DNA of 64,000 nt from NCBI GenBank assembly GCA_030831315.1, contig JAURLI010000060.1, forward strand, positions 1-64,000. The letters run 5' to 3'. A program made the position numbers and the translations under genes. Below the pieces are notes generated by a model that was given only the letters and a program-made list of their open reading frames with translations, made no database searches and had not been told where the DNA came from. The first letter of the stretch is position 1. The number at the start of each line of letters is the position of its first letter. The stretch comes from Alphaproteobacteria bacterium. GTDB taxonomy: Bacteria; Pseudomonadota; Alphaproteobacteria; SMXQ01. Below are positions 23,270-26,698 of this stretch, piece after piece.

Positions 23270-23752
23270 TTAAACCTTGTCGTCGGTGCGCACCGGAACG
23301 CCCGCCTGATCCTTCGACGTACGGATGGTTTCCAGCGTCTGCACCTTGGCCACGTGCGGGGTGGACGTCAGCTTCATGGTCAGCGCATCGCGGTGCGACT
23401 TGTCGCGCGCCACGACCTTAATCAGGAAATCGCCGCCGCCACGGATCATGTGGCATTCGCGCACCTCGGCCCAGTCGGCGACGGCCTGCTCGAAACCGGC
23501 AAGCACGTCCTGGGCCTGGGAATCGAGGCCGACGAGGGCGAAGAACATCTCGCGGAAGCCGAGCAGCTCGGCGTCGAGTTCGGCGTGATAGCCCTTAATG
23601 AAGCCCGAGGTTTCGAGAGCACGCACGCGGCGCAGGCAGGGCGGGGCGGAAATGCCGGCGCGCCGCGCCAGATCGACGTTGGTCATCCGCCCGTCGTCCT
23701 GGAGGTCGGCGAGGATGCGCTGATCTATGCGGTCAAGGCGCACGCGCTGCAT
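23270..23752 (-). CDS. Lrp/AsnC family transcriptional regulator
   Basis: LDRIDQRILADLQDDGRMTNVDLARRAGISAPPCLRRVRALETSGFIKGYHAELD. Confidence 0.92.
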   Translation of the reverse strand: MQRVRLDRIDQRILADLQDDGRMTNVDLARRAGISAPPCLRRVRALETSGFIKGYHAELDAELLGFREMFFALVGLDSQAQDVLAGFEQAVADWAEVRECHMIRGGGDFLIKVVARDKSHRDALTMKLTSTPHVAKVQTLETIRTSKDQAGVPVRTDDKV

Positions 23753-24005
23753 GAAGGAACTCCCGTGAAGCGGGCGGCGGCCTGTTCTGACGACGCCTTG
23801 CCGGCGAAGCATGGCCCCCTGCCCGTCCCCTTTTATAATCCTTGGGTAATTTTATTTCAACGGAGGTGCAGCCCTTTGCTTTCGATGGAGCCGAGGGGCC
23901 GAGTTTTCCCCGGGATTCCCAGCCTTGCACCGGTTGCAGGGCTTGCGGCGGCGGGGGCCGGTTTCTATGTTAGAAGCCCTTCCCACCGCTTCCGGATTTC
24001 CCGCC

Positions 24006-24977
24006 ATGCCCGATACGACCCACGCCAAAGTGATCATTCTCGGATCCGGTCCGGCGGGGCTGACGGCAGGCATCTATACGGCGCGCGCCAGCCTCGAGCC
24101 GGTCATGATCGCCGGCATGCAGCCCGGCGGCCAGATGACCATCACCACCGAGGTCGAAAACTACCCCGGCTTCGCCGACGTCATCCAGGGCCCCTGGCTG
24201 ATGGAACAGATGCAGAAGCAGGCCGAAAAGGTCGGTACCCGCATTGTGTCCGACCTCGTCACCAAGGTCGATTTCTCGCGCCGTCCCTTCGTGCTCGAAG
24301 CCGATTCGGGCGCCCGCTTCACAGCCGATGCGGTGATCGTGTCCACCGGCGCGCAGGCGCGCTGGCTGGGCCTGCCGAGCGAGGAAAAATTCAAGGGCTT
24401 CGGCGTCTCCGCCTGCGCCACCTGCGACGGCTTCTTCTTCCGCGGCAAGAAGGTAGCAGTGGTCGGCGGCGGCAACACGGCGGTGGAAGAAGCGATCTAC
24501 CTGACCAACCACGCTTCCCATGTCACGGTCATTCACCGGCGCGACAGCTTCCGCGCCGAAAAGATCATGGTCGATCGCCTGATGGCCAATCCCAAGATCA
24601 GCGTCATGTGGGATCACGTGATCGACGAGATCACGGGTACCGAAAATCCGCCCGGCGTCACCGGCACGCGCGTGAAAAACGTCAAGACCGGCGCGCTGAC
24701 GGATCTGGAACTCGATGGCGTGTTCATCGCCATCGGCCATACGCCGAACACGGAACTCTTCAAGGGCCAGCTCGACATGGATGCGGAGGGCTATCTCGTG
24801 ACCAAGCCCGATTCGACGGCGACCAACGTTCCCGGCGTCTTCGCCGCGGGCGATGTGCAGGACAAGGTCTTTCGCCAGGCGGTGACGGCGGCGGGAACGG
24901 GCTGCATGGCGGCGATCGAGACCGAGCGCTTCCTCGCCGCCCATGAACACGCGGGCGGCCGCAAAGCGGCCGAATAA
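24006..24977 (+). CDS. trxB: Thioredoxin-disulfide reductase
   Basis: VIILGSGPAGLTAGIYTARA, redox-active CATCDG, GGGNTAVEEA. Confidence 0.96.
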   Translation: MPDTTHAKVIILGSGPAGLTAGIYTARASLEPVMIAGMQPGGQMTITTEVENYPGFADVIQGPWLMEQMQKQAEKVGTRIVSDLVTKVDFSRRPFVLEADSGARFTADAVIVSTGAQARWLGLPSEEKFKGFGVSACATCDGFFFRGKKVAVVGGGNTAVEEAIYLTNHASHVTVIHRRDSFRAEKIMVDRLMANPKISVMWDHVIDEITGTENPPGVTGTRVKNVKTGALTDLELDGVFIAIGHTPNTELFKGQLDMDAEGYLVTKPDSTATNVPGVFAAGDVQDKVFRQAVTAAGTGCMAAIETERFLAAHEHAGGRKAAE

Positions 24978-25030: not shown

Positions 25031-25924
25031 ATGGACTGGGACAAGCTCAGGATTTTTCACGCCGTCGCGGAAGCAGGCAGCTTCACCCACGCCGGGGAGA
25101 ACCTCAATCTTTCGCAGTCGGCGATCTCGCGACAGATTTCGGCGCTGGAGCACGATCTCGGCGTCGCCCTTTTCCATCGCCATGCGCGTGGGCTGGTACT
25201 GACCGAACAGGGCGAGCTGCTCTACGGCACGACCCGCGATGTCGTGCAGCGGCTCGCCACCGCCCAGGCGATGCTCACCGATTCGACCGAACGTCCGCGC
25301 GGCGTGCTCAAGGTCACGACGACGGTGGCGCTTGGCTCGATCTGGCTGACGCCGCGCGTCAAGCAGTTCATGGAACTGTATCCCGACGTGCGCCTGACGC
25401 TGCTACTGACCGACGACGAGATGGACCTCGGCATGCGCGAGGCCGACGTCGCCATCAGACTCAATCCGCCGACCCAGCCCGATCTCGTCCAGCGCCGCCT
25501 GATGACCATGCACAACCATGTCTATGCGGCGCCGGAATACCTGAAGGCCCACGGCATGCCGCAGAAGATGGCGGACCTCGCCGATCACACCCTGATCATC
25601 TACGGCGAGGACCTGCGCCCGCCGACGGCGCATATCAACTGGCTGATGGACGGGTTGCGCAAGATGGGGGTGAACCCGGCCAACGTCCTCAAGGTGAACA
25701 ACATCTACGGCATCTTCCGGGCCGTTCAGTCCGGCATCGGCGTGGCGGCACTGCCCGACTACACGGTGGGCCAGTCGGCGGCCAACCTCGTGCGCATCCT
25801 GCCCGACCATGCGGGGCCCAGTTACGACACCTATTTCGTCTATCCGGCGGAACTGCGGGCATCGAAGCGGGTGATCGTTTTCCGCGACTTTCTCCTCGGC
25901 CAGATCAGCGAAAGCCTGTTCTGA
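25031..25924 (+). CDS. LysR family transcriptional regulator, VtlR/LsrB-like
   Basis: MDWDKLRIFHAVAEAGSFTHAGENLNLSQSAISRQISALEHDLGVALFHRHARGLVLTEQG; position directly downstream of trxB as for alphaproteobacterial LsrB/VtlR. Confidence 0.9.
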   Translation: MDWDKLRIFHAVAEAGSFTHAGENLNLSQSAISRQISALEHDLGVALFHRHARGLVLTEQGELLYGTTRDVVQRLATAQAMLTDSTERPRGVLKVTTTVALGSIWLTPRVKQFMELYPDVRLTLLLTDDEMDLGMREADVAIRLNPPTQPDLVQRRLMTMHNHVYAAPEYLKAHGMPQKMADLADHTLIIYGEDLRPPTAHINWLMDGLRKMGVNPANVLKVNNIYGIFRAVQSGIGVAALPDYTVGQSAANLVRILPDHAGPSYDTYFVYPAELRASKRVIVFRDFLLGQISESLF

Positions 25925-26030
25925 GGCACCTAAACCATTGATATAGAAGGCATCGAGCTATGCAATAGCCGCATGTCTCCTTTGACCTATTGGCGCTGGA
26001 ATCGGGGCCAGCAGCCGCTATCTTACGCCC

Positions 26031-26230
26031 GTGAACAGCGAGCGCGCTGTCCCCGAAAGGGTCTTATATAAGTTTCGCGGCGCGCTCCCGGCCTCAGACT
26101 TCAGCCGGTCCGCCGTTCAGAGTTTTCGGGTGCAATGCCCGAAACACGGGCCCTTCGGGGTCCGACGTCTCCCAGACGTGAAGCCTCCCTGTTAAACTTG
26201 CCGGGCCTTCGGGCCCGGCATTTTTCTTTT
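26031..26230 (+). ncRNA. Candidate structured non-coding RNA (AbcR-like sRNA or leader), ends uncertain
   Basis: Non-coding stretch with a run of hairpins (GAGCGCGC/GCGCGCTC; CCGGC/GCCGG; TTTCGGG/CCCGAAA; GGGCCC-TTCG-GGGTCC; ACGTCT-CCC-AGACGT), two CTCCC motifs, and a strong intrinsic terminator at the 3' end. Confidence 0.5.
26200..26226 (+). terminator. Rho-independent terminator
   Basis: GCCGGGCC-TTCG-GGCCCGGC then ATTTTTCTTTT. Confidence 0.85.
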
Positions 26231-26284
26231 CAGCAACCTGCCGGGTGGCCCGGGTACGGTTTTTAACGGGGAGCAGTCACGGCC

Positions 26285-26698
26285 ATGAACCATGCCGTCA
26301 AAATCATCTGTCTTGTATTCATGTTCGCGTTTTTCGCCAAACCCGCCCTGGCGGAGGGGGACGCAAAAGCGGGACAAGCGCTGTTTGAAAAACAGTGCGC
26401 CCGCTGCCACGACACGCGCCCGGGCAGGCACAGCGACAAGGGCCGAAGCCTTAACGGCGTGATCGGGCGCAAGGCGGGCGGGTTCGTCTTCTATTCTTCC
26501 CCCGCCATGATGAAGTCGGGCATCACTTGGTCCGCAGAGCACCTGGACAAATACCTCGAGGATCCGCGCAAGTTCATTCCCGGAAGCTGGATGTCCACCT
26601 CTGGCCTCGACAGCTACAAATGGCAGCCTTCAAAACAGGAACGCGAACACGTCATCGCTTTCCTGACGTCCATTTCGCAGGGCCGGCCGCAGAACTGA
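26285..26698 (+). CDS. Small class I c-type cytochrome, periplasmic
   Basis: Signal peptide MNHAVKIICLVFMFAFFAKPALA, heme motif CARCH, candidate axial Met in PGSWMSTSGL. Confidence 0.85.
   Translation: MNHAVKIICLVFMFAFFAKPALAEGDAKAGQALFEKQCARCHDTRPGRHSDKGRSLNGVIGRKAGGFVFYSSPAMMKSGITWSAEHLDKYLEDPRKFIPGSWMSTSGLDSYKWQPSKQEREHVIAFLTSISQGRPQN

Follow-up and report, generated by a model that had tools for sequence, protein, structure and literature searches.

A predicted small RNA gene with anti-Shine-Dalgarno motifs, located beside an LsrB/VtlR-type LysR regulator, recurs across Alphaproteobacteria

Small RNAs (sRNAs) of the AbcR type have been described as a family of Rhizobiaceae and Brucellaceae (PMC3712013). 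They possess two anti-Shine-Dalgarno (anti-SD) motifs, CUCCUCCC and CUGUUCCCCUCU (PMC5461406; PMC8844928), and the M2 motif of the corresponding Rfam family, ar15, is GUUCCC (PMC5461406). In S. meliloti, the LysR-type regulator LsrB binds the promoter of abcR1 (PabcR1), which presents the LsrB box GCAT-N3-TG-N3-T at positions -61 to -49, and removal of this box lowered PabcR1 activity more than 22-fold (PMC8844928). The presence of trxB next to the VtlR/LsrB gene has already been reported (PMC7486931), and LsrB has been stated to be unique to Rhizobiales (PMC11975290). An sRNA of related design, SorX of Rhodobacter, is derived from a 3' UTR (PMC5036791).

Here, we analyzed a 64,000-nt stretch of alphaproteobacterial DNA, hereafter the window. 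A structured, terminator-ended element had been predicted in the 360-nt gap (25925-26284) that separates the stop codon of a lysR gene (25924) from the ATG of a cytochrome c gene (26285), and both properties were recovered. The fold energy of 26011-26232 is -93.1 kcal/mol against -77.2 kcal/mol in dinucleotide shuffles (z = -3.4, with 0 of 200 shuffles as good), positions 26120-26228 reach z = -4.6 relative to shuffles, and the announced very strong terminator, TGCCGGGCC-TTCG-GGCCCGGCA-TTTTT, is found at 26199-26225. Most likely, the element encodes an sRNA of ~195 nt that acts in trans and has a predicted start (Table 1). With a probability of roughly 0.8, we interpret it as a stand-alone gene for a trans-acting and probably Hfq-dependent sRNA that is activated by LsrB/VtlR and represses transport and metabolic mRNAs.

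Table 1. Features of the trxB-lysR-sRNA locus, in window coordinates.
Feature	Position	Strand	Basis and remarks
trxB, thioredoxin reductase	23925..24977	+	Directly 5' of lysR; NCBIfam TIGR01292, 421.5 bits (cut-off 343)
lysR, LsrB/VtlR orthologue, 297 aa, no cysteine	25031..25924	+	phmmer against PDB 9HH1; trxB-lysR-sRNA synteny
Predicted LysR operator, GCTATGCAATAGCCGCATGTCTC	25957..25979	+	Dyad core ATGC-N7-GCAT at 25960-25974; conserved in lysR-sRNA gaps
Predicted promoter	25997..26024	+	Cross-genome alignment; -35 TGGAAT (25997-26002), -10 TATCTT (26019-26024), inferred start ~26031
Proposed sRNA gene, ~195 nt	26031..26227	+	Promoter-to-terminator span, fold, conservation; 5' end inferred, 3' end is the terminator U-run
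5' hairpin, ACAGCG-AGCG-CGCTGT	26035..26050	+	Sequence; directly after predicted start
Accessory hairpin, TTTCGGG-TGCAATG-CCCGAAA	26124..26144	+	Fold; lineage-specific, related hairpins at same-family loci
Accessory hairpin, CGGGCCC-TTCG-GGGTCCG	26147..26164	+	Fold; variable among relatives
Core hairpin, ACGTCT-CCC-AGACGT	26165..26179	+	Covariation; holds anti-SD 1 (CUCCCA, 26169-26174)
Anti-SD 2, CCUCCCUGUU	26184..26193	+	Most conserved segment; CCTCCC invariant 29/29 (alignment A1)
Rho-independent terminator, TGCCGGGCC-TTCG-GGCCCGGCA-TTTTT	26199..26226	+	Sequence; in homologues a GC-rich stem-loop of varying sequence, then a T-run

Judging from its sequence, the window LysR is an LsrB/VtlR orthologue, in line with the VtlR/LsrB-like gene named in the original prediction. 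It matched LsrB of A. tumefaciens (PDB 9HH1) over its full length with 329.7 bits (phmmer, E = 1.4e-97), against 119.6 bits for the next-best solved LysR structure. The expected neighbor trxB was found directly upstream, and it holds the same position and strand relative to lysR in 72 of 76 named relatives. Full-length LsrB orthologues, most of them cysteine-free, lie next to trxB in many Alphaproteobacteria outside Rhizobiales, the window gene among them. Both redox cysteines of Agrobacterium LsrB, C144 and C273, are replaced by Val in the window LysR when aligned with 9HH1. Since the window LysR and those of 55 of the 80 named relatives possess no cysteine at all, the C144/C273 switch cannot be general. 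An Lrp/AsnC-family regulator gene (23270-23812, minus strand) is divergent from trxB in the window, and an Lrp-like gene is also present upstream at ~48 of the 80 named LysR loci.

The core of the RNA recurs far beyond chance, since plain BLAST of positions 26120-26240 yielded a match in 30 of 61 relatives. This core, ACGTCTCCCAGACGT-GAAG-CCTCCCTGTT-AACT-terminator, is near letter-identical between families. We used a 66-position covariance model (R1), whose E-values are rough, to search 290 genomes sampled evenly across Alphaproteobacteria, and found matches in 157 genomes; the LysR was found in 160 (E up to 1e-75). Among the matches listed, at least 85 genomes from 50 families encode the RNA on the lysR strand, 145-990 nt downstream of the stop codon of lysR, and at least eight others have it 1.1-6 kb downstream. 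Named bearers include Reyranella, Kiloniella, Sneathiella, Magnetovibrio, Minwuia, Tistlia, Oceanibacterium, and Aquibaculum. At some loci the RNA is located away from LysR. In each of two genomes of 1.6-1.8 Mb, R1 matched seven times and the LysR search found nothing at 1e-75; the sRNA appears to have multiplied where the LysR is missing or diverged.

The core hairpin shows covariation. Alignment A2 (107 distinct sequences) was fitted to the model and hence leans towards it; in it, 97% of the core-hairpin pairs are kept, slid controls fail, and four of the six pairs present changes on both sides. Such double changes number 25 in this alignment, compared with 1.9 in shuffles. In A1, an independent MAFFT alignment, double changes occur at two pairs. 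The arms still match each other in 25 sequences that do not possess the usual right arm (mean stem score of 6.5 versus 3.1 with swapped arms), and these form 24 distinct stems. Among the hairpins listed in the original prediction, the core hairpin is kept and co-varying, and the accessory hairpins are lineage-specific or variable. The 5' hairpin follows another pattern: most relatives present a local hairpin of different sequence after the predicted start, and 92% of 99 loci beat their own shuffles over this 40-nt stretch. A near-palindrome, GATGTTGCGNCGCAGCATC, is found just 3' of the predicted start at five loci and others, and may represent either a second operator or a hairpin at the 5' end of the RNA. 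At that place, the window presents a different hairpin, ACAGCGAGCGCGCTGT.

The two CTCCC copies reported earlier (26169-26173 and 26185-26189) are correctly placed, but a third copy inside a predicted stem (26085-26089) had been missed. The first was described as lying in a hairpin loop; it does belong to a hairpin, but in ACGUCU-CCC-AGACGU six base pairs close a CCC triloop, so that the motif straddles the stem and is only partly unpaired. Anti-SD 1 is optional, since some divergent copies have lost the CUCCC from the loop (e.g., GAAA loops) and the CCUCCC of anti-SD 2 is invariant in A1. In the fold of the 3' half of the RNA, the unpaired probability of anti-SD 2 is mostly 0.7-0.98; in the full-length fold of the window, it is predicted to pair with the 5' end with a probability of ~0.7.

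Such alternative folds count in favor of the suggested attenuating leader for the cytochrome c gene, here understood as a cis-acting 5' UTR with terminator and anti-terminator folds. The cytochrome gene is on the same strand, with its ATG 58 nt past the terminator, and the proposed pairing AACAGCGAG:CUCCCUGUU is present in the window (complementary at eight of nine positions, with a pair probability of ~0.6-0.73 in the full-length fold). However, this pairing is not kept among relatives, where the mean best match is 5.72 of 9 positions against 5.66 in shuffles, and we rejected a conserved switch between the 5' end and anti-SD 2 on this basis. Moreover, this cytochrome gene is downstream in the window only, with no match at the other loci searched, including that of a congener, and the conserved unit possesses both a predicted promoter and a terminator of its own. 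These results contradict the suggestion of a cytochrome leader, which we consider very improbable.

The gap between lysR and the sRNA presents a conserved dyad. The motif ATGC-N7-GCAT was found in 83 of 103 such gaps, against a mean of 0.97 and a maximum of 4 in dinucleotide shuffles, and the consensus aligned on the dyad is AGC(C/T)ATGC(A/G)-N5-(C/T)GCAT(A/G)NC. Across 100 loci, and counting from the GCAT half of the operator, TGG is found at +26 to +28 and TANNNT peaks at +48/+49. This places the predicted start ~61 nt after GCAT, a distance that corresponds to the site bound by LsrB in PabcR1 of S. meliloti. The exact VtlR/LsrB box is present at only 26 of the 100 loci. The window presents GCAT-N3-TC-N3-T at position 25971, about -60 relative to the predicted start, with a single mismatch to the box. 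A generic sigma-70 scan found no promoter, and the one given here was called from the alignment across genomes.

These signals bear on whether the element is simply the 3' UTR of the lysR mRNA, i.e., its terminator region, from which an sRNA is perhaps processed without an independently activated gene. The RNA is on the same strand as lysR and only ~150-300 nt downstream at most loci, and SorX offers a precedent for such an origin. However, the operator and -10 element that are conserved in the gap after lysR speak for a separate promoter, and there are copies away from LysR as well as tandem copies, each of them ending in a terminator. Together, these features make a mere lysR 3' UTR less likely, and we regard it as improbable. 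Two or three tandem copies, each ending in a terminator, were found between lysR and the next gene at five loci, two of them from genomes of family f41, and the slot holds up to three copies in f41 and in Sneathiella; this arrangement recalls tandem abcR1/abcR2, and anti-SD 1 is lost from the loops of some of these copies.

We then return to the preferred reading, an independently transcribed sRNA that is probably activated by the adjacent LysR and probably silences nutrient-uptake genes through their ribosome-binding sites. Transcription would start from its own promoter at ~26031 and end at the terminator (~26226), and the LsrB/VtlR-type regulator would activate it by binding the ATGC-N7-GCAT operator, centered at about -64. 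The RNA would expose the universal anti-SD CCUCCCUGUU; in most lineages it would also expose CUCCCA, another anti-SD, in a hairpin loop. These motifs may pair with ribosome-binding sites of the GGGAG type in mRNAs for transport and metabolism and lower the translation of these mRNAs, by analogy with AbcR1/2 in rhizobia. Use of Hfq would be consistent with the presence of hfq in the host genome. Weighing against this reading are the predicted pairing of anti-SD 2 with the 5' end in the window, the small number of loci with an exact VtlR/LsrB box, and the loci at which the RNA is remote from LysR. The sequence ACAGGGAGG is a full complement to nine bases of anti-SD 2 and was considered just before ATG. 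Six such sites exist in the genome of the window, four of which precede full-length genes whose N-terminal sequences resemble tripartite tricarboxylate transporter receptors, with ACAGGGAGG as their ribosome-binding site. The same sites also precede several transporter receptor genes in relatives. The permuted control CAAGGGAGG yielded a similar share of genes for solute-binding proteins as ACAGGGAGG, many of which follow either type of site, and the AAGGAGG control set was small; these sites are therefore only suggestive of transporter targets and we claim no specificity for them.

At gathering cut-offs, no Rfam family matched the window except for a tRNA elsewhere. A permissive search of 25700-26500 ranked SorX first (RF02784, 34.8 bits against a cut-off of 46.6), together with suhB/MmgR (RF00519, 27.7 against 41) and SorY (RF02651, 26.1 against 111), all three being anti-SD sRNAs of Alphaproteobacteria with an architecture like that of the window RNA. 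Family ar15 (RF02345, cut-off of 40 bits) gave no match in this interval up to E = 10, and 6S (RF00013) gave none at gathering in the window nor up to E = 10 in the interval. The Rfam check proposed with the original prediction thus returned no confident match to an unrelated family and excluded 6S at all thresholds used. Membership in 6S, ar15, SorX, SorY, or MmgR was rejected, as scores were below the cut-offs or absent. A literature search by motif string found no relevant paper among those listed.

These weak matches might still indicate a member of MmgR/ar8, SorX, or plain ar15 that the Rfam thresholds missed, and ar15 and suhB/MmgR do share an Rfam clan (CL00108). We consider this unlikely: SorX, MmgR, and SorY all remained under their gathering cut-offs, ar15 was not reported even at E = 10, its GUUCCC motif (PMC5461406) is replaced by CCUCCCUGUU in the window RNA, and ar8 is located by another gene and built on another core (PMC12559287). 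The failed model tests therefore lower the probability that the RNA is an AbcR, not that it works like one. The proposal of an AbcR-like sRNA outside Rhizobiales is thus sustained for mechanism and position, but not for ar15 membership by Rfam. The AbcR-like reading is supported by the class-wide LsrB/VtlR synteny, the LsrB-box-like operator distance, the covariation of the hairpin, and the AbcR (ar15-like) RNA that occupies the equivalent slot at Rhizobiales loci.

In Roseibium, Kaistia, and Mongoliimonas, the slot downstream of lysR holds an RNA with CUCCUCCC in its first hairpin followed by CUGUUCCCCUCU; these RNAs score as ar15 with 24-35 bits (E = 0.0014 to 0.95), short of the 40-bit cut-off. 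In another family (f23), the LysR-adjacent RNA exceeds the SorX cut-off of 46.6 in two of three cases (52.3 and 51.6 bits). Because the same slot holds AbcR-like, SorX-like, or tandem RNAs depending on the lineage, the position is constant and the RNA sequence is lineage-dependent. A common descent of these RNAs is plausible.

We lean towards the view that the module formed by trxB, an LsrB-type LysR, and an anti-SD sRNA is old in Alphaproteobacteria. Under this view, a single LysR-activated sRNA would have diverged into, or been replaced in place by, the AbcR RNAs of Rhizobiales, the SorX/SorY-like RNAs of Rhodobacteraceae-like genomes, and the CCUCCCUGUU RNAs of Rhodospirillales-like lineages, and the cysteine redox switch of Agrobacterium LsrB would be a late addition. 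This locus and its relatives indicate that the pairing of regulator and sRNA extends far beyond Rhizobiales, where alone such pairs had been described, and is kept across much of Alphaproteobacteria. The locus links sRNA families that have so far been studied separately, and provides a candidate for a new Rfam family, of which many members are at hand and no entry exists at gathering level. The conserved operator predicts activation at a fixed distance, and what LsrB senses becomes testable in lineages with a cysteine-free LysR.

Compared with known systems, the window RNA shares with MmgR/SisA, ar8, and suhB a weak hairpin, a single-stranded CCUCCCU anti-SD, a terminator, and a class-wide distribution. 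It differs in that MmgR/ar8 RNAs present the core UUUCCUCCCU and usually lie by an N-formylglutamate amidohydrolase (FGase) gene (PMC12559287), and in its score (27.7 bits versus 41). SorX and SorY of Rhodobacter present the same succession of hairpin, ACCUCCCUGUUGGACU, and terminator, but both are RpoH-controlled in R. sphaeroides, unlike the LysR control proposed here, and the window scores only 34.8 and 26.1 bits with their models; the neighbors of the R. sphaeroides SorY locus, RSP_1543/1544, are hypothetical proteins. Relative to AbcR1/AbcR2 (ar15), the second anti-SD is CCUCCCUGUU instead of GUUCCCCUC and the hairpin sequences differ as well. The M1 motif CUCCCA of ar15 is present in the core hairpin loop (26169-26174, partly paired) and M2 is absent, and the window RNA is single whereas Rhizobiaceae and Brucellaceae possess several ar15 members (PMC3712013). 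Both RNAs are encoded directly 3' of trxB-lsrB/vtlR, behind an LsrB-type operator near -61 that is predicted for the window and deviates there from the box at one position. Both also present CUCCCA in the first hairpin, a second anti-SD between this hairpin and the terminator, and a Rho-independent end.
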